Below are positions 4,561 to 59,470 of a stretch of DNA of 64,000 nt, piece by piece. Within the stretch, counting starts at the first letter, position 1. The number at the start of each line of letters is the position of its first letter. Both the position numbers and the translations under genes were made by a program. Below the pieces are notes generated by a model. The model was given only the letters and a program-made list of their open reading frames with translations. It was not told the origin of the DNA and ran no database searches. Source of the stretch: Microcoleus sp. bin48.metabat.b7b8b9.023 (GTDB taxonomy: Bacteria > Cyanobacteriota > Cyanobacteriia > Cyanobacteriales > Microcoleaceae); NCBI RefSeq assembly GCF_013299185.1, contig NZ_JAAFKG010000048.1:1-64000 (forward strand), read 5' to 3'.

Positions 4561-5880
4561 CGAGAAGCCCCTGGCTTCAGACATGGGGAGGGATAGGAGC
4601 GGCGATTGAGGGGGTTCGATGCCCCCTCAATCGCCATGCAATCTCCAGGAATGGCTCGTAATCTTGCTGTATAATTAGACATATCAATTGTCAAATTTTT
4701 TGAATTGTGGAACAAGTATTGACGTTAGTTTGCAAACTCCAACCAACGCCTGAGCAAGCTTCTAAAACAGATGCTTTGTTGAAGGCGTTTGCGGATGGTT
4801 GCAACTGGGTCAATCAGGTTGTTAAAGGTGGCGTGACCAGCAAAACGACGATTCAAAGCTTGACCTACCAAGAATTGAGAAAACAGTTTGGATTGAGCGC
4901 AAATCAGGCTGTGCGCGTCTGTGCCAGGGTTGGCGCAAATCGTAAAACCGCCAAGCTGAAAAACAAACCTGTGCAAGCGTTCAAAGCAACTAGCGCTGAT
5001 TATGATGCCCGAATCTTTGGCTTTAGAGAAAAGGATTGGACGGTTAGTTTGACTCTGCTTAACGGACGTGAGCATATCAAATTGGATTTGGGAAACTACC
5101 AGCGAGGCAAGCTCAAAGGTCGAGTTCCTACCAGCGCTCAATTGTGCAAGCACAGGGACGGACGCTACTACATTCATATTCAACTCAAAGACGAAACGCC
5201 AGAGCCGATTCATTCCGATCGAGTGATTGGTGTTGACTTTGGGCGGCGTGATATTGCGGTAACAAGCGAGGGTGATAAATGGGACGGTAAGCAAATTCAG
5301 CAGGTCAGGGATAGGTTCTCTAAGGTTAGAGCATCGCTTCAAGCAAAAGCCTCGAAGGGCACAAGATCGACTCGTCGTCGGGCGAGACAGATTTTGCAAC
5401 GGCTGTCGGGACGTGAGCGGCGCTTTCAACAATGGTTGAACCATAACATCAGCAAAGTAATTGTTCTGTCTGCCCTTCAACACAATGCCATTATTGCAAT
5501 TGAGGATTTGACGGGTATCAGGGAACGCACCAATCAGCAACCCAGAAACAAAACCGAACGCCGCCGATCTAATAGTTGGGCGTTCTTCCAACTGAGGATG
5601 TTTCTGAACTACAAGAGTTTGAATTACGGCGCCCTGTTGGTGACAGTTAACCCTGCCTACACCAGCCAAACTTGCCACGTGTGCAACCATATCGGGTCCA
5701 GAAGCGATAAGCGATTTAAGTGTGGCAACTGTGGCTGGCATGGTGACGCTGATGTAAATGGTTCGTTTAATATTGCCAATCTTGGAGCCGTTGTAAGTCG
5801 GCTTAGAGGCTCGGACACGCTTAGTTGCGATGTCCAGGGCTACCAAAAGCCCCCCGCTTCAGCGGTGGGGTAACTTACTC
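4561..5880 (+). mobile_element. IS200/IS605-superfamily TnpB-only element
   Basis: The element spans a left-end hairpin (AGCCCCTGGCTTC around 4566), the tnpB gene and a right-end hairpin (CCCCCGCTTCAGCGGTGGGG, about 5851-5870). No tnpA is present, so it is an IS1341-like, non-autonomous element. Joining the flanks CCAAAACCTC and CTCATCCTCC restores, on the minus strand, a stop codon followed by GGAGG and a GTG start. This supports the proposed ends within a few bases. In this family the right end normally lies inside a guide RNA (reRNA/omegaRNA), with the guide taken from the sequence after about 5880. Confidence 0.75.
4707..5873 (+). CDS. tnpB: TnpB RNA-guided nuclease (orphan)
   Basis: A 388-residue TnpB from a GTG start. 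The RuvC-like triad is visible: Asp in VIGVDFGRRD, Glu in IAIEDLTG, Asp in HGDADVNGS. A four-Cys zinc finger lies in between (CHVCNH, then CGNCGW). The C-terminal residues are encoded by the right-end hairpin, as is usual. TnpB proteins cut DNA next to a short TAM, directed by an RNA from the element's right end. This one appears intact. No transposase partner is present, so it depends on a TnpA elsewhere for movement. Confidence 0.9.
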   Translation: MEQVLTLVCKLQPTPEQASKTDALLKAFADGCNWVNQVVKGGVTSKTTIQSLTYQELRKQFGLSANQAVRVCARVGANRKTAKLKNKPVQAFKATSADYDARIFGFREKDWTVSLTLLNGREHIKLDLGNYQRGKLKGRVPTSAQLCKHRDGRYYIHIQLKDETPEPIHSDRVIGVDFGRRDIAVTSEGDKWDGKQIQQVRDRFSKVRASLQAKASKGTRSTRRRARQILQRLSGRERRFQQWLNHNISKVIVLSALQHNAIIAIEDLTGIRERTNQQPRNKTERRRSNSWAFFQLRMFLNYKSLNYGALLVTVNPAYTSQTCHVCNHIGSRSDKRFKCGNCGWHGDADVNGSFNIANLGAVVSRLRGSDTLSCDVQGYQKPPASAVG

Positions 5881-30269: not shown

Positions 30270-31004
30270 TTACCAATCTGGCGGTAAATTGTAATATTCA
30301 AGAGTCGATCGATCTTTGAGCAATTCTTGAGTTTGTTCATCCACCCGAATCTGACCATCAGCCAAGATTAACGCCCTTTGAGTCGTTTTCCCAATCCAGT
30401 TCAAATCGTGGGAAGCGATCAAAATTACCTCGATCGGCAATTGCGACAAAACCTTAGCCAAATGCCTACGCCACGATGGATCTAGTCCATTTGTTGGCTC
30501 GTCTAAAATTAAAATTGCCGGCTCTAATGCTAAAATAGCCGCTAATGCTGCTAACCTTCTTTGACCCCCAGAAAGCTCGTGGGCCGAACGGTTAGCAAAT
30601 TCTACCAAACGGAATTCGTCTAATAAGCTTAAAGCCCGATCGCGCGCCATCTCCAAAGATACCCCATAATTGCGCGGCCCGAACATCACATCCTCTAAAA
30701 TAGTTGGCATAAATAGCTGATCGTTAGCATCTTGAAAGCAAAACCCAATCTGCCTCCGCGCTTCCGATAAAGTTGCCTGTTCTAGCTTAATTCCCTGCAC
30801 TCTAACCTCGCCAGATTGAGGCATTTTCAAGCCGATTAAATTTTCCAGTAAAGTGCTTTTGCCAGCACCTGTTAAACCAAGTAGAGCAACTCTTTCTCCC
30901 GGTTGTAAGGTGAAGGAAATTCCTTGCAATACAGGTTTTTGCTGCGGATATCCGAATACTAAGTCTTGCACTTCGATTGTTGGCGTCATTTTGAGATTAG
31001 TCAA
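30270..31004 (-). CDS. cbiO: Cobalt/nickel ECF transporter ATPase
   Basis: A 244-residue ABC ATPase with Walker A LLGLTGAGKSTLLENLIG, Q-loop CFQDANDQLFMP, signature HELSGGQRRLAALAAIL, Walker B ILILDEPTNGLDP and an H-loop in IASHDLNW. The QDANDQLFMPT segment is typical of CbiO-type energy-coupling ATPases. It is the last gene of a minus-strand operon after cbiM and cbiQ, forming the energy-coupling part of a Ni2+/Co2+ uptake system. Confidence 0.92.
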   Translation of the reverse strand: MTNLKMTPTIEVQDLVFGYPQQKPVLQGISFTLQPGERVALLGLTGAGKSTLLENLIGLKMPQSGEVRVQGIKLEQATLSEARRQIGFCFQDANDQLFMPTILEDVMFGPRNYGVSLEMARDRALSLLDEFRLVEFANRSAHELSGGQRRLAALAAILALEPAILILDEPTNGLDPSWRRHLAKVLSQLPIEVILIASHDLNWIGKTTQRALILADGQIRVDEQTQELLKDRSTLEYYNLPPDW

Positions 31005-31137: not shown

Positions 31138-31797
31138 CTATGCCCAATTCCCATAAGAAGCTATTGTTAATCCGACTGCGGTTAAAATCGTGACTGTGAG
31201 CCAGAATCGCTCTTTTGATGTTGATTTTGACTCGGTGGGTAAAGTTCCTTTGTAGCCGCGAATTAGCATGGCTGCGTGGACTCTCTCGGCGCGATCGAGA
31301 CTTCGCAAATAAAGAGCTCCTATCATTGAAGCACTGGCGTATCTCAGCCATCCTACGCTACCCGACAAACCTCGCAGTTGAGCGGATCGTTTCATCCGGT
31401 TGACTTCTGCGAGCAATATTTCTAAGTATTGTCCAGCTAAAAGCACAATCTCTTGTAAGCCTGCTGGTAGGGGCAATCCTTTCAGGGCAATTCCGAAACT
31501 GTGGGGCGGCAAAGTTAGCAGAAAACTGTTCATAATTAGCAGGCAAATGAGGGAACGCAGCAACAGAAAACTCGCTCGTTCCCAACCTTGGGGTAGCACT
31601 AATAAGGAGAGGAAAATTAATTCTGCTCCTAATAGTTGCAGCAGGGTTCGCAGCGGTGCTTTCAGCCAAAGTGACCAAAAAAGTGCGATCGCCCCATAGA
31701 TGCCCAGCCACAGCCAAGCACCCATTTTCATAAAACCAATCCCAATCACAATCGTGAGAGACAGTCGCAATCGAAAAGGTATTGATAATTTAAGCAT
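31138..31797 (-). CDS. cbiQ: Cobalt/nickel ECF transporter transmembrane protein
   Basis: A 219-residue membrane protein with about five hydrophobic segments and the coupling motif ...RMKRSAQLRGL... and ...AERVHAAMLIRGYKG..., both resembling the Ala-Arg-Gly helices of T components (CbiQ). It overlaps the end of cbiM by 8 bp. It bridges the CbiM substrate-binding component to the CbiO ATPase. Confidence 0.9.
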   Translation of the reverse strand: MLKLSIPFRLRLSLTIVIGIGFMKMGAWLWLGIYGAIALFWSLWLKAPLRTLLQLLGAELIFLSLLVLPQGWERASFLLLRSLICLLIMNSFLLTLPPHSFGIALKGLPLPAGLQEIVLLAGQYLEILLAEVNRMKRSAQLRGLSGSVGWLRYASASMIGALYLRSLDRAERVHAAMLIRGYKGTLPTESKSTSKERFWLTVTILTAVGLTIASYGNWA

Positions 31798-32716
31798 CTT
31801 TAGATTTCACCAACTGAGCAATCCCAAAAGCCGTACCGAAACAAATAGCAGAGCCTAAAACTCCAGCAATGCTAGTACCTATTGGTTGTTCTTCTAATCC
31901 TTTAACACCGTAACCAGCTAGAGGAGTTGGAATCTCAATCGCCACAGCTTCTTTATCTTTAAAACCGTATTGTTCTGCTACCGCTTCTAACCCATCAGGC
32001 CAACTTGAAGCGAACAGAGAAAGCACGCCACTAATTAATAAAACTCCAATTACTGGCACTAGCCATTTCTGTAATTGTGGCTGTTCTCCTGGTAACAAAT
32101 CCGGCCGTACTTTCACGAGATAAGTTAAAACGCCGCCTGTAATTAGCCCTTCACCAATGCCAATTAAAATATGTATGCCTACCATTGCTGGCAATGCGAT
32201 ATTCAGCGGTACTGTACCAGAAATTGCCAATTCAATAGCCACACAAATCGAAGCGGACACAACACTGAGAGCGGCCGCAATCCCCGCAGCTAGCGGCAAG
32301 CGATTTCTGGAACCTCCCAATAGTTGCTGCAATGGCTGCAACAGCCACCAACCCACCCAAATTCCGACTAGCCCCATATTAAAAATATTCGCTCCCAGTG
32401 CGGTGATGCCCCCATCCGCAAACAAGACGCTCTGAATTATAAAAACCGTACTCATCGCCAGAGTTGCCGCCCAAGGGCTACCCAAAACCACGGAAGCTAG
32501 CGCGCCTCCCAACAAGTGCCCGCTGGTGCCACCTGCTACAGGAAAGTTAATCATCTGGGCGGCAAACACAAAAGCCGTGGTTAAACCCATGACTGGAGCT
32601 TGTCGCAACCCAAGACTGGCGCGGGTTCGATTTAGGGCAACTGCAATAACTGCTGCGCTTGCTATGCCCGTGGCAATTGCTACGGGCGGTGAAAGAAAAC
32701 CATCAGGTATGTGCAT
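31790..32716 (-). CDS. cbiM: Cobalt/nickel transporter substrate-specific component fused to N-type domain
   Basis: An S component (CbiM/NikM family) beginning MHIPDGFLSPP. The N-terminal Met-His binds the metal in characterised members, so the start at ATG 32716 is preferred over an upstream ATG at 32728 that would add four residues. Seven hydrophobic segments follow. The C-terminal part contains a SSWPDGLE motif, characteristic of NikN/CbiN, making this a one-chain M+N protein. The substrate (Ni2+ or Co2+) cannot be decided from sequence. It diverges from the 33238 operon across a Fur-like box. Confidence 0.92.
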   Translation of the reverse strand: MHIPDGFLSPPVAIATGIASAAVIAVALNRTRASLGLRQAPVMGLTTAFVFAAQMINFPVAGGTSGHLLGGALASVVLGSPWAATLAMSTVFIIQSVLFADGGITALGANIFNMGLVGIWVGWWLLQPLQQLLGGSRNRLPLAAGIAAALSVVSASICVAIELAISGTVPLNIALPAMVGIHILIGIGEGLITGGVLTYLVKVRPDLLPGEQPQLQKWLVPVIGVLLISGVLSLFASSWPDGLEAVAEQYGFKDKEAVAIEIPTPLAGYGVKGLEEQPIGTSIAGVLGSAICFGTAFGIAQLVKSKDA

Positions 32717-33237
32717 CGATATCTCCAAAACATGAGAACTCTCAACCTTTTAGTCAACTCTTTTTTACAAAACTTTACAATCCCCTCTGGGGGGATTTTT
32801 GCCGATTTTGGTTTCAGAAGCCACGTATTATCGGCTTTTTGATAACTATTATCAATAATTCTCGATCGACTGGGTAGTAAAATCCCTGAACAGTAAGGCT
32901 TTTATATAAATCTTAAAATAAAATTAACAAAAGACTGAAAGTCAATAATTGGTTTTATTATCTGTTTTTGAGAATAAGTTGCATTACTAGCTTTTTAAAA
33001 GAAGCAGCAAAAATGCTCATTAGCTAGTAAAACTAAAAGTTTTGGGTGCTCTAAAAACTAAAAAGCCGGATTCTATTGCTAGTTAATGTCCTTTTAGCAG
33101 TATTTTAAGGCGATCGATCGCGTGAATGTGCGATCGACTCCTCCGCACGGCTTGTATTCTCAAGAAACTCAAAATACTAATGCAACTATTCTCAAATACG
33201 TTCCCGAACAATCCAAACTCAATGAGGCCCGATAGCG
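32717..33237. other. Divergent regulatory region between cbiM and the 33238 operon
   Basis: The 521-base AT-rich gap holds the Fur-like palindrome at 32840-32854, a GATT-flanked hairpin AATCCCCTCTGGGGGGATT (about 32779-32797) followed by T residues, and a TGAGAATAAG half site near 32969. No riboswitch was recognised. It must contain promoters for both directions. Confidence 0.6.
32840..32854. promoter_or_regulatory. Near-consensus Fur box
   Basis: The site TGATAACTATTATCA fits the 7-1-7 Fur core TGATAATnATTATCA at 13 of 14 defined positions. It lies 124 bp upstream of the cbiM start and about 384 bp upstream of the divergent gene at 33238. Control by iron (Fur) is inferred; Zur or PerR boxes are similar but fit less well. 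Confidence 0.65.
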
Positions 33238-33870
33238 GTGCAAAATTCAATCGAAAAATCAACTACCGATTTAGTTCCATCTGAATTTCCCAGACAATTA
33301 GATATTGCTCAAGTTTCTGTCTACGGGCTGAGCATTTTATCCGCTGGTTTATTTCTGTTTATGCCTTTCGTTAACGTACTCCATCCCAGCCCTTGGCAGC
33401 GATGGATGGGAACCATTCACGGCATGGGTTCAATGTTGGCATTAGTAGTCATGGCTTATACCGGACACTTAGCATTTCCCTTGCTACGGGGAGTCGGTAA
33501 AATCTTGCCACAAATGCGTACATTAGCCTTTTGGTCAACTCTTTTGAGTTTTTTAGCCATTGCTACCGGCAACTTATCATATATGCGCTATCGAGCAGGT
33601 GCAGATTTCGGTGGAGCTCGCGCTTGGCTGAAATCAAACTCGCCTTTAGTCCAGTATGTTTTGATGGAATACCACGAATTTACCGTGCTATTTACTTTGC
33701 CATTAGCAGCAGCTTGCACCTGGATTTTGTGGTACTACGGCGACTCAATTTTAGAGAAAAAAAATCGCCCCGTTTTAGCAGCTACTTCTGTAGCTTTGAT
33801 GGGAATCATGTTTTTTGCAATGGGCGGCATGGTTACCGGACTTGGTGTTGCTAAAATTCACGCTCTTTAG
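33238..33870 (+). CDS. DUF4079-like five-helix membrane protein
   Basis: A 210-residue protein, GTG start, with five hydrophobic segments (about 26-48, 60-80, 96-115, 143-167, 180-204). Conserved-looking histidines sit at or near the membrane (H49, H61, H77, H146), as in membrane haem or metal proteins. I recall similar proteins as DUF4079, function unknown. It opens a three-gene operon starting from a Fur-box region opposite a Ni/Co transporter, so a role in metal reduction or transport is plausible inference. Spacing to the next gene is 58 bp. Confidence 0.6.
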   Translation: MQNSIEKSTTDLVPSEFPRQLDIAQVSVYGLSILSAGLFLFMPFVNVLHPSPWQRWMGTIHGMGSMLALVVMAYTGHLAFPLLRGVGKILPQMRTLAFWSTLLSFLAIATGNLSYMRYRAGADFGGARAWLKSNSPLVQYVLMEYHEFTVLFTLPLAAACTWILWYYGDSILEKKNRPVLAATSVALMGIMFFAMGGMVTGLGVAKIHAL

Positions 33871-33928
33871 TTAGTTTTTAGATTAACTAATGACTAGCAA
33901 CTAACAACTCAATCTAGGAAATCCTGAA

Positions 33929-34402
33929 ATGACTCGACAGTTATCCCGCGACAAATCAGCGACCAATGAACCTATTTACGGCAAAATCTGGAGCAATCTC
34001 AAAGAATTTCCACAAGGATTAGCTGAGGGAGCAGCAACTCCGCCGAGTAATTCTGGCCCGGCTGCTGCTGCATTAATTAGTGCTGGCATTGGTTGTTTCA
34101 CAATGATGGTGAGTCACCACTTAGGGGACACATCCAAAGAGATAAACGAAATGCTTTGGAATCTCGGCACTTGGATTCCCGGAAGCAAGACTGGTAACGA
34201 AATGTGGGGCAATATCGGCAGCTATACCGGTAAGGAAACTATGTTGCTTATCGGTTGGCTAGTCAGTTGGCCAATACTGTATGCAATTTGGAAGAATAAA
34301 AGTGTTAAAAGTCGCACCATATTTTTCTGGATGTTTGCTTTGTTAATGGCTTCCACAGCTATGTCTTGGCATCCTTTGTTCCCCTATTTGCCGTTAACTT
34401 AA
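33929..34402 (+). CDS. Three-helix membrane protein of unknown family
   Basis: A 157-residue protein with a hydrophilic N terminus and hydrophobic segments at about 44-64, 104-121 and 128-148. Notable residues are a C56 and an H63-H64 pair in the first helix end, and a Ser-Trp-His-Pro at 146-149. Trp-rich polar loops lie between helices. I do not recognise a family. It is second in the operon with the DUF4079-like protein, 12 bp before the TonB-like gene, suggesting a joint membrane complex. Confidence 0.65.
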   Translation: MTRQLSRDKSATNEPIYGKIWSNLKEFPQGLAEGAATPPSNSGPAAAALISAGIGCFTMMVSHHLGDTSKEINEMLWNLGTWIPGSKTGNEMWGNIGSYTGKETMLLIGWLVSWPILYAIWKNKSVKSRTIFFWMFALLMASTAMSWHPLFPYLPLT

Positions 34403-34414
34403 GTAATACGAGGT

Positions 34415-35149
34415 TTGATGATGGAAACAAAAAGTAAGCCACTCCCGGCGAGGGAGATGCACAAATTCGTTTGGGTTGGTGTAGGACTTTTTACTCTTGT
34501 ATGCGTGACTTATCCCATTGCTATGTGGCGCGTCACCCAAATGGAAAAGTTTCGCGGTATTTATGTCAAATCTTTGACAATTGAGGGCAAAGAACCCGCG
34601 AAGAAGGTGGCAGATGCTAGCATTGTTGCTAAGGTAGCGGAACCAGCTATTGCCAGTAGCCCAGCACCTTCGGCTTTAGTGGTTGATAGCACAAAAAAAC
34701 TGCCTGAAAAGTCTCCTGAAATTGCACCTTTCACAAATAAGTCTCCTGAAACGGCTATTGCAAGTAGCCCTACAGATAAGACTGTCCAAGCATTGCCTGT
34801 GTCAGCGGGCAAGCAGGAAGTTCAGGCGGTTGAGGTCACTAATCAGACAGCGGAAATTACCGATCGCACCAAACTAGATGAGTTAGCTCTAAAAGTGTAC
34901 GATCGCATCAATCAGACTTGGCAAGCTAACCCCACATTCACTCAAAATCTAGTCTATCGAGTCACTGCAAGTCAAGACGGGGCGATCGGCAACTTCGAGC
35001 CCCTCAACCAACCAGCCAAGGATTACACCCAAGAAACCCCCCTGCCAAATCTGCTCAAATCTGCCCAAACTACCAGCAGCAGTGCAATACCCGTAGCTAA
35101 ATTGACAGTAGTATTTGCACCTACTGGAACCTTAGAAGTTAACCCCTAA
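34415..35149 (+). CDS. TonB-like single-span periplasmic protein
   Basis: A 244-residue protein with one N-terminal membrane helix (about 18-38), a long Ala/Pro/Ser/Lys spacer (about 50-150) and a small C-terminal domain (about 150-240). The C-terminal domain contains ELALKVYDRINQTWQANPTF, VYRVTASQDGAIGNF and ETPLPNLL. Layout and the dG-I/P-L pattern resemble TonB, which carries energy to outer-membrane metal receptors. No ExbB or ExbD gene lies here, so the TonB reading is an inference. Confidence 0.6.
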   Translation: MMMETKSKPLPAREMHKFVWVGVGLFTLVCVTYPIAMWRVTQMEKFRGIYVKSLTIEGKEPAKKVADASIVAKVAEPAIASSPAPSALVVDSTKKLPEKSPEIAPFTNKSPETAIASSPTDKTVQALPVSAGKQEVQAVEVTNQTAEITDRTKLDELALKVYDRINQTWQANPTFTQNLVYRVTASQDGAIGNFEPLNQPAKDYTQETPLPNLLKSAQTTSSSAIPVAKLTVVFAPTGTLEVNP

Positions 35150-35170
35150 CTCAGATACAACATCCATCCC

Positions 35171-35203
35171 GTAAGGTGCATAATTTGCACCTTACTTTTG
35201 CTT
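35171..35203 (+). terminator. Intrinsic terminator after the 33238-35149 operon
   Basis: Hairpin GTAAGGTGCA, loop TAAT, TGCACCTTAC followed by TTTTG (35171-35200). The stem has ten pairs. It closes the three-gene operon and separates it from the ferritin-like gene. Confidence 0.75.
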
Positions 35204-35265
35204 GTTAACTAAAATGTGATATTATAAACACCACCCTGTTAAGCATTCTACCTCTCAGACAACAA

Positions 35266-35700
35266 ATGAAAGAACTTGACGAGAAAAAAACCCAAGAACT
35301 GCTATGCACCATCATGGAATGGGAACTAGCAGGAGTAGTGCGCTACACCCACTATGCACTCATGGTGACAGGGCCAAACCGAATTCCCATCGTGCAGTTT
35401 TTTCAAGCACAAGCAACCGAATCCCTACTCCACGCCCAACAAGCCGGAGAAATTTTAACAGGTTTAGACGGACATCCCAGCCAAAAAATTGCCCCCATCG
35501 AAGAAACATACAAACACTCCATCAAAGACTTGTTGGAAGAAAGTTTAAATCACGAGAAAAAAGCGCTCAAAAAGTATAAATCCTTACTTGAAGTCGTCAC
35601 AGACTCCAGCGTTTATCTCGAAGAATACGCCCGCACCCTAATTGGACAAGAAGAATTGCACCAAGTGGAACTAAAAAAAATGCTGCGGGATTATAGTTGA
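35266..35700 (+). CDS. Bacterioferritin-like di-iron protein
   Basis: A 144-residue four-helix ferritin-like protein. Candidate di-iron ligands are E20 (or E18), E52 with H56 (spaced E-x3-H instead of the usual E-x2-H), E97 or E92, and E129-x2-H132. The helix 2 haem-Met of classical bacterioferritin is not evident. It may store or safely oxidise iron. It sits between the membrane operon and the FTR1 permease, consistent with an iron role. Confidence 0.8.
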   Translation: MKELDEKKTQELLCTIMEWELAGVVRYTHYALMVTGPNRIPIVQFFQAQATESLLHAQQAGEILTGLDGHPSQKIAPIEETYKHSIKDLLEESLNHEKKALKKYKSLLEVVTDSSVYLEEYARTLIGQEELHQVELKKMLRDYS

Positions 35701-36105
35701 TTTAGTCATTAGTCATTAGTCATTAGTCATTAAGGGTAGGGTGCGTGGCTACCTTGAATCCCTTAAAAAAATAGATGATCTCGGAGCGACGCACCTTGCT
35801 ATTGTTCAATACCCCGGACTGTTTTTTGAGCAGCGACCCAAAGCCTCATTCTACCGTTAATATTTCACAGAGGCTGGAGCCCAGAACCCCCATTCTACCC
35901 TTGGTCATTGAAAACTGTCCGGACTATTGATTGTTAGTTGTTATTGATTGCGATAGATAGCAGCTTCTGAATAACCTATGACTATTTGACTAATCACCAA
36001 TAACCCTTCGACTCCGCTCACGGTACTGCAAATAACTAATAACCAATAACTAATAACCAATAACTAATAACCAATAACTAATAACCAATAACCAATAACC
36101 ATATA
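35701..36105. other. Repeat-rich spacer before the FTR1 gene
   Basis: It holds GTCATTA heptads (about 35704-35733), a GGTGCGTGGC palindrome of the 2548 family (about 35739-35805), and an extended run of (C/T)AATAAC heptads from about 35998 to 36100. The heptads run directly into the start codon at 36106 with no ribosome-binding site visible. No gene supported. Confidence 0.7.
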
Positions 36106-37056
36106 ATGAACTTTACTGAAGCCATCCCAACCTTTGTAATTACTCTCCGTGAAGGCGTAGAAGCCGCCTTAGTCGTCGGAATTGTCCTAGCTTGCTTGAA
36201 AAAAGCCGACCAAACTCACCTCAATTCTTGGGTTTATGCAGGTATCGCAGCAGGCATTGCTGCTAGCGGTTTTGTCGGTGTTTTATTCAATGGATTGCTC
36301 GCAGCACTATCAACATCAAATCAGCCTTATGCACCCGTAATTAAACAGCTATTAGAAGGCGTATTGGGAATTTTTGCGATCGCCATGCTAAGCTGGATGC
36401 TAATTTGGATGACTCAGCAAGCCCGCTTTCTCAAAGCCGAAGTTGAAGGCGCACTTACCGCAGCTTTAAAATCAAACACGAATGCTGGCTGGGGCGTATT
36501 CGGCTTAATTTTTATCGCCGTACTTCGCGAAGGTTTTGAAACAGTTATATTTATCAGCGCTCAATTTCAACAAGGTTTAACTCCAGCTTTAGGTGCTGTG
36601 GGCGGTTTGCTTGGGGCTGCAATCATTGGTTCCCTAATTTTTAAATGGGGTGTCAAAATAGATATCCGCCAGTTTTTCAAATTTATGGGAATCTTATTAT
36701 TGCTAATCGTCGCCGGTTTAGCAGTCTCTGCACTCAAACATTTTGACGCCTCCGCTGCCATTTTGTCCCAGACGGATAGCCAGTATGCAGCAATTTGTGT
36801 TTTTTACGATCGCACGGCACCAATCCACTCCTGTATTTTAGGCCCGATGCTGTGGAATGCAGCCGGAGTTTTGCCCGATCGACAATTTCCGGGAGTGATT
36901 CTCAAAGCGCTCTTTGGATACCGCGATCGAATCTATCTTTTGCAAGCTGTTGGTTATACAATATTCTTACTAACAGTCGGCGGTCTTTACTTCCAAAAAT
37001 TAACCCCTCAAGCGACTCTTCCTACCAAAAATACTCAGCCTGCTCGCCCTCAGTAG
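36106..37056 (+). CDS. FTR1-family high-affinity iron permease
   Basis: A 316-residue multi-pass membrane protein with the two REGxE motifs of iron permeases: REGVE at residues 15-19 and REGFE at 141-145. About seven hydrophobic segments follow the FTR1/EfeU layout. In relatives these residues pass ferric iron across the membrane after oxidation. Its position between a ferritin-like gene and rpaA/isiA-type genes supports iron uptake. The C-terminal third diverges, with a QTDSQYAAICVFYDRT stretch. Confidence 0.88.
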   Translation: MNFTEAIPTFVITLREGVEAALVVGIVLACLKKADQTHLNSWVYAGIAAGIAASGFVGVLFNGLLAALSTSNQPYAPVIKQLLEGVLGIFAIAMLSWMLIWMTQQARFLKAEVEGALTAALKSNTNAGWGVFGLIFIAVLREGFETVIFISAQFQQGLTPALGAVGGLLGAAIIGSLIFKWGVKIDIRQFFKFMGILLLLIVAGLAVSALKHFDASAAILSQTDSQYAAICVFYDRTAPIHSCILGPMLWNAAGVLPDRQFPGVILKALFGYRDRIYLLQAVGYTIFLLTVGGLYFQKLTPQATLPTKNTQPARPQ

Positions 37057-39243: not shown

Positions 39244-40290
39244 GTGACAAGCATGGCCAAAAAATCCTTCCCAGCCGAAGGAGAAACCTTTCCCTGGTGG
39301 GCCGGCAACGCCCGCTTAATCAACCTTTCCGGTCGCTTGCTGGGCGCTCACGTCGCCCAAGCCGGCCTCATCGTCCTCTGGGCGGGAGCCTATAGCCTGT
39401 TTGAGCTTTCGCGATTCAACCCAGAATTACCCATGTACGAACAAGGCTTGATTCTGCTACCAAACCTAGCCAGACTCGGCTTAGGTGTCGGAGCCGGAGG
39501 CAAAATTGTCGATACTTATCCGTACTTTCAAATTGGTGTCGTACACCTCATCAGCTCAGCCTTTCTCGGCTTCGGCGGCATCTTCCACTCCCTCAAAGGG
39601 CCAGCCACCCTCGAAGAAAAAACTCCTTTCTTCGGCTACAGATGGGAAGACAAAGACAAAATGACCACCATCTTAGGCATCCACCTAGTTTTGTTAGGTA
39701 TTGGAGCCTTCTTGTTGGTGGCCAAAGCAATGTATTTCGGTGGTTTGTATGATACCACGATCGGGCAAGTGCGCGTTATTTCGGAACCGACTTTCAACCC
39801 GACTGTGATTTTTGGCTACCTGTTCGGTGCAGGCGGCAAAAACTGGATTGCCTCTGTTAACAACCTCGAAGATGTTGTCGGCGGCCATATCTGGGTAGGA
39901 ATTCTCTGCATAGTCGGCGGGTTGTGGCACATTCGCACCAAGCCTTTTGCCTGGACAGAAAACCTGTTCGTCTGGTCAGGAGAAGCTTATCTCTCTTACA
40001 GTCTCGGCGCTTTAGCTTTAATGGGCTTCATTGCCGCCTACTTTGTTTCAGTCAATACCCTGGTTTACCCAGTTGAATTCTTCGGCCCAGCTTTAAAAAT
40101 TGGCATCCAGCAATATCCCTATTTCGATAGCGGAGAAGTTTTGACTTCTCGCGCTTGGCTGGCAAATTCCCACTTCTGGTTAGCCTTCTTCTTTTTGCAA
40201 GGACATATTTGGCACGCTTTACGATCAGCAGGATTTGACTTCCGCAAAGGCGAAGTCGCGAACCAAGTTGCAGCGAATGCGGCCAGTTAA
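39244..40290 (+). CDS. CP43'-like chlorophyll-binding protein (IsiA/Pcb family)
   Basis: A 348-residue six-helix antenna protein. Signature segments are [57 protein letters not shown] and [15 protein letters not shown], then [20 protein letters not shown]. The large luminal loop E of true CP43 is absent, as in IsiA/Pcb. It should ring photosystem I or II as a chlorophyll store and antenna, mainly under iron stress. I accept GTG 39244; an ATG at 39253 is also possible. Confidence 0.9.
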
Positions 40291-40310
40291 TCAGAATTTA
40301 CGCGCGGGGG

Positions 40311-40383
40311 TCAAAAACCCGGTTTCTGCACCAACATTTCTCGAAAAAAGCGACAACTTTTGCGAGAAACCGGGTTTTTTGGG
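40311..40383. repeat. AACCCGGTTTCT inverted repeat
   Basis: Arms CAAAAACCCGGTTTCT and AGAAACCGGGTTTTTT surround a 40-base loop, between the two antenna genes. A related copy is at 51143-51210. It may terminate the first gene. Confidence 0.85.
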
Positions 40384-40418
40384 CAACTCCAATTCACCGA
40401 AATTAGAGGAAAGCGAAA

Positions 40419-41894
40419 ATGCAAGCAATAGCTGAACCGAATTTACAACTAGAGCCGGAAAAGCCAGAAAGCGAGTACGGCTGGTGGGCTGGTAACGCCC
40501 GTTTCACAGAATTTTCAGGACGTATTTTAGGAGCTCACGTCGCTCACGCAGGTTTGATTGTACTCTGGGCCGGGGCGATGACCCTGTTTGAAATTTCCAA
40601 TTTCAACCCGCAGCAGCCTATGTACGACCAAGGTTTAATCCTACTGCCGCATTTGGCAACTTTGGGTTTGGGAGTAGGAAAAGGCGGTCAAATTGTTGAT
40701 ACCTATCCCTATTTTGCGATCGGAGTTGTGCATTTAATTAGCTCCGCAGTTCTTGGTGCCGGCGGCCTTTACCATTCCTTGCTCGGCCCGAAAGTATTGC
40801 CACAAAACAACACTTTCTTTGGTTCCTTCGGCTACGACTGGGAAGACAAAGATAAGATGACCAGCATCATCGGCATTCACCTATTACTATTAGGTGCTGG
40901 TGCTTGGCTGCTAGTCGCAAAAGCTTTATTTTGGGGAGGTCTTTACGATCCCCACGTCGCGGATGTACGGATAATTAGCGAACCAACCCTCAATCCCGCC
41001 CGCATCTTTAGCTATCTCTTGCCCGTACACGGCCCGGAAGGAATGGCAGCAGTTGACAACTTAGAAGATGTTGTCGGCGGTCACATTTATGTTGGCTTGC
41101 TGTGCATCATTGGCGGTTTCTGGCATATCTTCACCAAGCCTTTTGCTTGGGCCAAGCGAGTGTTGTTTTGGTCGGGAGAAGCTTACCTTTCTTACAGTTT
41201 GGGCGCTTTGGCTTACATGGGCTTTTTGACTGCCTACTTTGTGACAGTAAACGACACTGTTTATCCAGAGATTTTCTACGGCCCTGTGGGTTTAACCGGC
41301 CCGGAAGCCACACTAGTTTCTTCGCGGACTTGGCTGGCAACAAGCCACTTTGTGTTAGCGATTTTGGCGCTTTCCGGTCATATTTGGCACGCCCTGCGCG
41401 TTCGTACAAAAGCGGCGGGGTTTGATTTTCGATCGGGCGAATTTGTAACGGCAACTCCTGCTATGGTTCCAGTTGCAAGTGCAACGACAACCGTAAGTTT
41501 TTCTGACACGACTGTAACTTTTTTGCGGAATTTGCCGATTTACCGCAAGGGATTGTCTCCCATAGTTAGGGGATTAGAAGTTAGCTTGGCTCACGGCTAT
41601 TTCCTGGTAGGAGCTTTTGCAGTATTGCTGCCTTTGCAAGAAAAAGGTTTAGCACCTCTGGCAGCATTGCTGGCAACTCTGGCATTAGTCTTGATTTTGG
41701 CAATGGGCCTCTCGATTTACGAGAATCGGAACATCGAAGCAGGTAAAGTTCTTTACTGGCACAAAACCTCGGAAGATTGGAGTTTATTCCGGGGCGGTTT
41801 TTTGCTCGGAGGTACGAGCGGAGCTTTCCTTGCTTATTTGCTGCTAGATAATTTTGCTGGCATTGATGCAATTTTCCGAGGAGTTGTGAACTGA
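40419..41894 (+). CDS. CP43'-like protein fused to a PsaL domain
   Basis: A 491-residue fusion. Residues 1-345 are a six-helix CP43'/Pcb antenna ([49 protein letters not shown]). A Thr/Val-rich linker (about 346-365) leads to a PsaL-like domain (about 366-491) beginning [30 protein letters not shown]. PsaL is the photosystem I subunit that allows trimers to form. Such fusions are known in some cyanobacteria and could plug an antenna ring directly onto PSI. It lies 128 bp downstream of the other antenna gene. Confidence 0.92.
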
Positions 41895-58169: not shown

Positions 58170-59470
58170 AAACTGGGTTAAAAACCCCGTCTTTTAAGAC
58201 GGCTTTGGATTTAAGTTTTTCTGTGATAACATACTATGAGTAGTTTGGTAAGGAAAATGTTGAAAGCGTTCAAGTACAAAATCTATCCGACAAATGTGCA
58301 GTCAATTTTGCTTGCGAAGTCGTTTGGATGTACTAGATGGTTTTACAACTACGCTCTCAATCTAACCTCTGAGACCTATAAGCAAACAGGAAAGGGGTTA
58401 AGCAGGAATGAAATAATCAACCTTTTACCTTCCCTAAAGAAAGAGTACGAATGGCTGACAGAAGCACCGTCACAAGTGTTGCAGCAAGCCGCCTTGAATC
58501 TTTCGAGTGCTTTTCTCAATTTCTTTGAAGGAAGGGCTAAGTATCCAAACTTCAAAAAGAAACAAAATCGACAATCGATTAGATTTCCTCAAGGATGTAA
58601 GTTAAAAGACGATACCTTGAAATTACCCAAAATTGGCGATGTTCATTGTAAGGTATCAAGGCAACCAGAAGGAAGTCTAAAGTCGGTCACGGTTTCAGTT
58701 AGCCCATCGGGAGAATATTTTGCGGCTTGTCTCTATGATGACGGGAAAGTGTTACCCGAAAAATCATCAGAAGGGAAAGCCATCGGGATAGACGTTGGGT
58801 TAACCCATTACGCTATTACTTCCAATGGAACTAAGCATGGAAATCCCAAATACTATCGAAAGTATGAAAAAAGATTAGCTAAAAGACAAAAGCAATTAAG
58901 CCGTAAGCTAAAAGAGTCTAATAACCGCAATAAAGCTAGAGTTAAAGTTGCTAAAGTTCACGCTAAGATTGTCCGATGTCGCGAAGATTTTTTACACAAA
59001 CTAAGTCGTAAATTAGTTGACGAAAACCAAGTCATCGTTGTAGAAAATCTGGCAGTTAGAAATATGGTTAAAAACCACAGCCTAGCTAAATCAATTAGTG
59101 ATGCTGGCTGGGGGCAATTTTGTACCATGTTGAAATACAAGGCCCAGTGGGCAGGAAAAACCTACATTGAAGTAGATAGATTTTTCCCTAGCTCCAAGAC
59201 CTGTAATAACTGCTTAAATCGTGTAGATAGCTTGAGTTTGAATATTCGTAGCTGGCAATGTCCTAAGTGTGGAGAAAACCACGATAGAGATATTAACGCA
59301 GCTAAAAATATTCGAGATGAAGGTTTGCGAATTTTGACGGTAGGGCATACCGCTACTGCTTCGGGAGGGAGAGTAAGACCAAGTAAAGGCAATGCTTTTA
59401 CAAGGCTTCTCCCTGTGAGCGAAGAATCCTCTCGCCTGATAGCAGAGGAGTGTCAATAAGATATGCTTAC
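58170..59470 (+). mobile_element. Second TnpB-only element (IS200/IS605 type)
   Basis: Left hairpin CCGTCTTTTAAGACGG (58187-58202), the tnpB gene, then a right hairpin TCCTCTCGCCTGATAGCAGAGGAG (59427-59450). No tnpA. Ends are approximate. The element sits between pheA and the DUF1997-like gene. Confidence 0.65.
58257..59459 (+). CDS. tnpB: TnpB RNA-guided nuclease (orphan, second)
   Basis: A 400-residue TnpB. I start at ATG 58257 (MLKAFKYKIYP), with AAGGA at 58250-58254 a few bases upstream, rather than the frame's earlier ATG at 58236. The RuvC triad (GIDVG, VVENLAVR, NHDRDINAAKN) and the Cys zinc finger (CNNC, CPKCG) are all intact. It belongs to a different subgroup from the one at 4707, with low identity between the two. 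Confidence 0.92.
   Translation: MLKAFKYKIYPTNVQSILLAKSFGCTRWFYNYALNLTSETYKQTGKGLSRNEIINLLPSLKKEYEWLTEAPSQVLQQAALNLSSAFLNFFEGRAKYPNFKKKQNRQSIRFPQGCKLKDDTLKLPKIGDVHCKVSRQPEGSLKSVTVSVSPSGEYFAACLYDDGKVLPEKSSEGKAIGIDVGLTHYAITSNGTKHGNPKYYRKYEKRLAKRQKQLSRKLKESNNRNKARVKVAKVHAKIVRCREDFLHKLSRKLVDENQVIVVENLAVRNMVKNHSLAKSISDAGWGQFCTMLKYKAQWAGKTYIEVDRFFPSSKTCNNCLNRVDSLSLNIRSWQCPKCGENHDRDINAAKNIRDEGLRILTVGHTATASGGRVRPSKGNAFTRLLPVSEESSRLIAEECQ

Follow-up and report, generated by a model that had tools for sequence, protein, structure and literature searches.

The window analysed here, a 64,000-nucleotide stretch of contig NZ_JAAFKG010000048.1 from a Microcoleus genome of 7.5 Mb, contains three adjacent, co-directional membrane protein genes, P1, P2 and P3, followed by a ferritin-like gene and an iron permease gene. 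Open reading frame (ORF) and family scans place P1 at 33238-33870 of the forward strand (210 amino acids, GTG start), P2 at 33929-34402 (157 amino acids) and P3 at 34415-35149 (244 amino acids, TTG start), with intergenic gaps of 58 and 12 bases. On the same strand, the ferritin-like gene lies at 35266-35700 (PF00210, 59.3 bits against a cut-off of 24.5) and the FTR1-type iron permease gene at 36106-37056 (PF03239, 180.6 bits against a cut-off of 25.3); the latter is under the cut-off of NCBIfam model TIGR00145 (225.7 versus 303.8 bits). Divergent from the trio on the reverse strand is cbiMQO (32728-30270), in which Pfam and NCBIfam scans identified cbiM with a PDGLE (CbiN-like) part (31790-32728), cbiQ (31138-31797) and a cbiO-type energy-coupling factor (ECF) ATPase gene (30270-31004). 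ORF coordinates and Pfam thus bear out the gene order given in an earlier description made from the letters of the DNA (the sequence-only reading), with all five forward-strand ORFs where it had put them. Its Ni/Co ECF transporter is present as far as the three genes go, while the Ni/Co substrate is unproven because CbiM is also under its NCBIfam equivalog cut-off. A terminator-like hairpin of 10 pairs, T-rich after the stem, lies 3′ of P3 at 35171-35195 on the forward strand. The ferritin-like gene and FTR1 may therefore be transcribed apart from P1-P2-P3, although the hairpin is weak evidence alone, with seven such structures found in the region against 5.3 in shuffled sequences.

The P1 and P2 of the window reach the cut-off of no Pfam or NCBIfam model and match no solved structure by sequence search, which agrees with the sequence-only reading that neither has an assigned role. 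Relatives were collected by a contig scan for two short P1 motifs, at least one of which had to be present, so that divergent homologues are missed; it found 89 loci, of which the best 80 were kept. Among these best 80 of 89, all are titled cyanobacteria save one metagenome-assembled genome labelled Gracilibacteria, perhaps a mislabel, and the closest named relatives as judged by P1 are Oscillatoriales, Tychonema and Microcoleus records. P1 and P2 are adjacent in 77 of the 80 loci and all three genes in 64, a lower bound as P3 was sought with the window P3 only; in one Symploca locus (L110), P2 and P3 form one shortened ORF. P1 is present in 26 of 59 relatives (18 full-length copies and 8 partial or with stops) and has matches in 21 of 386 genomes of a phylum sample, partial copies counted.

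The structure model of P1 consists of five long helices, as the sequence-only reading had predicted for the protein at 33238, and we regard this modeled layout as well supported. In an alignment of 59 rows (the window and 58 of the 80 loci, leaving out near-duplicates and locus L120, which has stops in the P1 range), the invariant histidines are His61 and His77 in helix 2 and His146 in helix 4. The last of these is part of the conserved motif E144-x-H146-E147, where helix 4 begins; D169 is likewise invariant. In the model His61 and His146 are placed at equal membrane depth. Cytochrome b561/Dcytb and cytochrome bd subunit A, which represent ferric reductases and quinol oxidases, are among the best structural matches of P1 and share with it a helical bundle with intrahelical histidines. 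They differ in that no Foldseek E-value is significant, no sequence relation was found, and P1 alone has three invariant histidines. P1 shows no sequence similarity to CcsB/ResB (PF05140), the hhalign probability being 0.75% (E 0.075, seven cyanobacterial sequences).

P2 had been described as a three-helix protein with a His pair and a Cys. Its model does have three membrane-length helices (43-68, 97-121 and 128-146) in addition to shorter ones, whereas the pair and the Cys are not conserved as such: in an alignment of 60 rows (the window and 59 of 77 P2 references, near-duplicates left out), His64 is kept in all 60 and His148 in 59, while His63 and the Cys are missing from the list of 90%-conserved positions. 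Several profile comparisons connect P2 to the CcsA/CcmC/CcmF family of haem-handling proteins (PF01578). Half of the P2 sequences (30/60) match PF01578 at E ≤ 0.1, the best at 4.2e-5, with the window copy at 14.8 bits against a cut-off of 29.9. When a profile of nine cyanobacterial CcsA sequences was run on all ORFs of the 80 loci, the window and the CcsA rows, only P2 (59 of 79 rows, best E 6.6e-4) and one true CcsA in locus L127 were found at E ≤ 1, with reversed decoys beginning at 0.72. Conversely, in a search with a P2 profile the only entries ranked above the nine CcsA rows (E 0.0024-0.03) are P2 proteins themselves and a P2-P3 fusion ORF, with decoys from 0.21. Profile-profile alignment of P2 with CcsA by hhalign gave an E-value of 3.5e-4 with a probability of only 37%, and the six other hhalign pairings gave E-values of 0.068-0.47 with probabilities below 1%.

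The 40 columns of the hhalign match, 43% of them identical, coincide with the WWD loop and the helix that follows it, and His148, just after the last helix of P2, sits like P-His2 of the family. Unlike the family, which has WGxxWxWDPKE and four core membrane helices, P2 has the segment WGxIGxYxGKE, in which two Trp and the Asp of the tryptophan-rich motif are gone, is shorter, and has three helices in its model. In addition, His64 is in the helix directly before the loop, whereas the conserved His72 of cyanobacterial CcsA is in an earlier one. The profile comparisons support this remote kinship well but fall short of proving it, and P2 is probably a distant, shortened CcsA/CcmC relative with the WWD motif lost. 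The pair differs from CcsA/CcsB in that the partner, P1, shows no sequence relation to CcsB. Because the charges of P2 fit an N-terminus inside (mean K+R of 5.3 and 3.6 for the inside parts, 3.55, with 4.43 D+E, and 0.03 for the outside parts), His64 and His148 are expected on the periplasmic side together with the loop; the helix layout of P2 is hence predicted by the charge rule as well as by the model. In known PF01578 proteins two periplasmic histidines and the WWD loop bind haem, as described in PMC10663686, and since P2 is probably related to them a haem site in the trio is plausible.

P3 combines an anchor (about residues 1-60) with a tail (about residues 108-244 in the window protein). 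The anchor is well kept, with a His at its start (His16) in 62 of 66 sequences and Arg39-Val40 after the helix in all 66. Among the 65 loci in which P3 was found, the protein is 62-100 amino acids long in 38 and longer in 27, the long forms being chiefly from the Microcoleus clade, Oscillatoria and Microseira; in two of three Chamaesiphon loci (L088 and L090), WD40 repeats follow the anchor in one fused protein. The sequence-only reading had P3 as a TonB-like protein driving an outer-membrane step. A single membrane helix with a long linker and a periplasmic C-terminal domain in Microcoleus and Oscillatoria resembles TonB, and the window tail matches TonB_2 at E 0.14 (12.7 bits, below the cut-off of 22). 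However, none of 20 long P3 proteins has a significant TonB match (best E 0.05, in a single member), and one of the 20 has a peptidoglycan-binding domain. Since only some lineages have this tail, and others have WD40 repeats in its place or none at all, the system does not have the TonB-like part at its core. The short forms, the variable tail and the sub-cut-off scores largely refute P3 as a TonB for the family, and that it energises an outer-membrane receptor is very improbable. The tail domain itself (window 34700-35149), which matches no Pfam model over cut-off in the window, has relatives in larger proteins elsewhere in the order, where it recurs in open frames of about 470 amino acids, sometimes in two copies (for example G034:C228 and G038:C25).

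Genes within about 10 kb of P1 were grouped into single-linkage sequence clusters, which may lump RTX proteins and of which one to a few members each were scanned; many contigs stop within 10 kb, so that a neighbour counted as absent may in fact be present. At least one iron-type gene (FTR1, ferritin-like, multicopper oxidase, its lipoprotein, OprB-type porin or FutA-like) is present in 41 of the 80 loci. The link to iron is more than local, and the neighbourhoods make iron the best-supported metal. The metal part of the proposed metal-handling system thus stands, as homologues of P1 and P2 do co-occur with metal genes, while its TonB part does not. The commonest iron neighbours are the ferritin-like gene (36/80) and FTR1 (34/80). 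Given that 48 of the 59 relatives have one to three FTR1 copies, we calculate that a chance FTR1 neighbour (20 kb of a 6 Mb genome) would be expected in about 0.3 of 80 loci. A multicopper oxidase (PF07731/PF07732) occurs in 22 loci (e.g. L101 8555-9559), mostly of about 330 amino acids and with a twin-Arg signal by eye, an HHH-motif (HHH_3) lipoprotein in 21 and OprB porins in 8. Two loci have a FutA-like solute-binding protein, a label read from the sequence: the NCBIfam models closest to it, for binding proteins of the phosphonate and thiamine types, all score below cut-off. Through its linkage to FTR1, the ferritin-like gene and the HHH lipoprotein, the oxidase is a candidate for the ferroxidase of cyanobacterial FTR1 uptake; one oxidase query had no match in the genome of the window. 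In Symploca (L110 and L115), the unit lies between a solute-binding protein and a porin, which in L110 matches the NCBIfam ‘iron uptake porin’ at 646 bits (cut-off 100) and in L115 is of the same cluster. The order of the iron genes depends on the lineage, with the oxidase upstream, downstream or on the opposite strand. On a P1 tree of 59 of 81 sequences, the iron label must change nine times, and at least three of these changes are imposed by well-supported branches; L126 was labelled iron for one porin 7 kb away and L075 for the oxidase alone.

Other neighbours recur as well. A cluster of RTX/HAF-repeat-type proteins (two members scanned) is found in 21 loci (L079 11515-13335, L056 12256-14154, L084 2844-4112), and since it and the oxidase (22 loci) almost never occur together, sharing one locus, the two may be alternative partners. 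Genes of cluster c88, by eye type I secretion foldase-like, are close by in L088, L090 and L093. Of the 80 loci, 28 have cbiM in the vicinity of P1, while several others place the unit next to ATP synthase or genes of no evident relation. Two loci that lack iron-type neighbours encode a DUF4198 protein immediately 5′ of P1 (L130 9037-9996 and L134 3669-4697; PF10670, over cut-off only in L130).

Between cbiM and P1 in the window, a pattern scan found a Fur/Zur-type 7-1-7 palindrome, TGATAACTATTATCA (32840-32854). It is the sole window match at up to two mismatches to TGATAATNATTATCA, which we take to be the Zur consensus (0.37 expected). The near-consensus Fur box of the sequence-only reading is corrected accordingly: the E. 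coli 19-base Fur box has no match in the window at up to three mismatches. The palindrome is about 110 nucleotides from the listed cbiM start and 384 from P1, overlaps a promoter-like match directed at cbiM (nine such matches found versus 8.0 in shuffles), and recurs, with changed spacers, across much of the Microcoleus clade. A second conserved Fur-family-like site, TGAGAATAAGTTGCA (32969-32983, forward strand), is 269 nucleotides before P1; in the same clade this second site, as TGAGAATNNNTTGCA, stands about 250-290 nucleotides before P1. TGAGAATAAGTTGCA lies within one arm of an imperfect inverted repeat in the cbiM-P1 interval (arms 32964-32989 and 33175-33199, about 185 bases apart), and by eye each arm has a Fur-like TGAGAAT half-site. 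Of 64 loci outside the Microcoleus clade, 4 carry TGAGAATNATTCTCA 5′ of P1 when one mismatch is allowed, against 0 (shuffles) to 0.4 (random windows) expected, and 5 carry TGATAATNATTATCA there when two are allowed, against 1.0-1.3 expected. These counts cover 80 of the 81 sequences and include the shortened L111, part of whose ‘upstream’ is coding. Fur-family-type palindromes are thus enriched upstream of P1. The Anabaena FurA consensus is given as AAATAAATTCTCAATAAAT in PMC4005646, and according to PMC10957091 the Zur consensus is matched by a 15-base palindrome 5′ of cyanobacterial zepA genes; the sites may be used by Fur, Zur or both.

Further downstream in the window are a response-regulator-like ORF (37916) and a Fur-family-like ORF (42432), both judged from their sequences. 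Between them, family scans place an IsiA-type gene (39244) followed by an IsiA/CP43-PsaL fusion (40419), together spanning 39244-41894; such hybrids are named CBPV in PMC3610870. Among the 80 loci, many of whose contigs end early, IsiA-type genes near the trio were found only in L056, L067, L070 and L078. Two TnpB/OrfB-like ORFs were recognized by eye from their translations at 4707-5873 and 58236-59459.

We tentatively propose that P1, P2 and P3 assemble into a single small complex of the inner membrane that carries haem and serves iron acquisition as a transmembrane redox module, a possibility that we rate as short of probable. The trio may then be the missing electron-carrying step of iron uptake, and such a module most likely reduces ferric iron at the periplasmic face; what the analysis shows is the lasting gene trio, its conserved residues and the iron genes around it, whereas the haem, the electron flow and the substrate are what we infer. 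In P1, a b-type haem would sit between His61 and His146, and His77 may bind a second one near the opposite face, conceivably together with His16 of P3; in P2, His64 and His148 would make up a haem or iron site in the periplasm. Fed with electrons from the quinone pool or the cytoplasmic side, the P2 site would reduce ferric iron, which would be re-oxidised by the multicopper oxidase where present and otherwise by oxygen, then imported via FTR1, FutABC or another importer, while P3 would anchor a lineage-specific periplasmic partner domain. As in yeast Fre/Fet3/Ftr1 and cyanobacterial ARTO/cFTR1, Nostocales-type loci have FTR1, a multicopper oxidase and an unassigned membrane redox candidate in one cluster; a difference is that no flavin- or NADPH-binding part was seen in P1-P3. 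The FTR1/EfeU-type permease is shared with EfeUOB, in contrast to which no EfeB or EfeO family match was found among the scanned neighbours and the adjoining lipoprotein bears an HHH_3 motif.

Several observations weigh against the link to iron. No iron-type neighbour was seen in 39 of the 80 loci. P1 is partial or broken in seven genomes of the same genus (G012, G013, G018, G019, G020, G027 and G028) that carry a stop-free FTR1 on the same contig, and the genomes G034 and G039 have P1-P2 but gave no match for FTR1. The trio is therefore patchy and dispensable, and its coupling to FTR1 is not obligatory. Dispensability and the loci lacking iron-type genes would suit a general membrane or envelope function, unrelated to iron, that hitch-hikes in metal islands, as would the RTX/HAF-repeat-type cluster; yet the iron linkage recurs in differing gene orders and Fur-family-type sites extend beyond the Microcoleus clade, and we consider this explanation improbable.

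The conserved E144-x-H146-E147 of P1 also lowers the haem redox reading, its ferric reductase form included, and raises another, in which His and acidic residues, including the invariant D169, are direct ligands of Fe(II), Fe(III) or a different divalent metal and the trio is a metal permease, a metal sensor or an FTR1 accessory. That FTR1 and the ferritin-like gene are the commonest iron neighbours fits this idea, but the two genomes with P1-P2 and no FTR1, the loss of P1 where FTR1 remains, and a kinship of P2 that points to haem make it rather unlikely. Haem could instead be moved or held at the periplasmic face for maturation of secreted haem proteins or salvage of haem iron, with no electron transfer. 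This is what the nearest relatives of P2 and its last-helix His, comparable to P-His2 among the family features given in PMC10663686, would suggest; against it, P2 has not kept the WWD residues and has three core helices versus four, no apocytochrome is among the annotated recurrent neighbour clusters (a minority of all clusters), and histidines near both faces of P1 suggest more than one haem, so that we judge it unlikely.

Returning to the redox module, its most specific form would be an undescribed cyanobacterial ferric reductase, with a two- or three-haem conduit, a trimmed haem-handling P2 as the iron-reducing site and exchangeable P3 partner domains, which we regard as conceivable and still doubtful. 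The review PMC7676907 reports a reductive pathway, alone or with siderophores, as the suggested main iron strategy of cyanobacteria, and names only candidates, ARTO and superoxide, for its reductase. The nameless, conserved three-gene membrane unit, repeatedly found next to genes for FTR1, a multicopper oxidase, a ferritin-like protein or a porin, provides a concrete gene set, and, if the proposal is true, a haem-handling protein would have been put to a different use.

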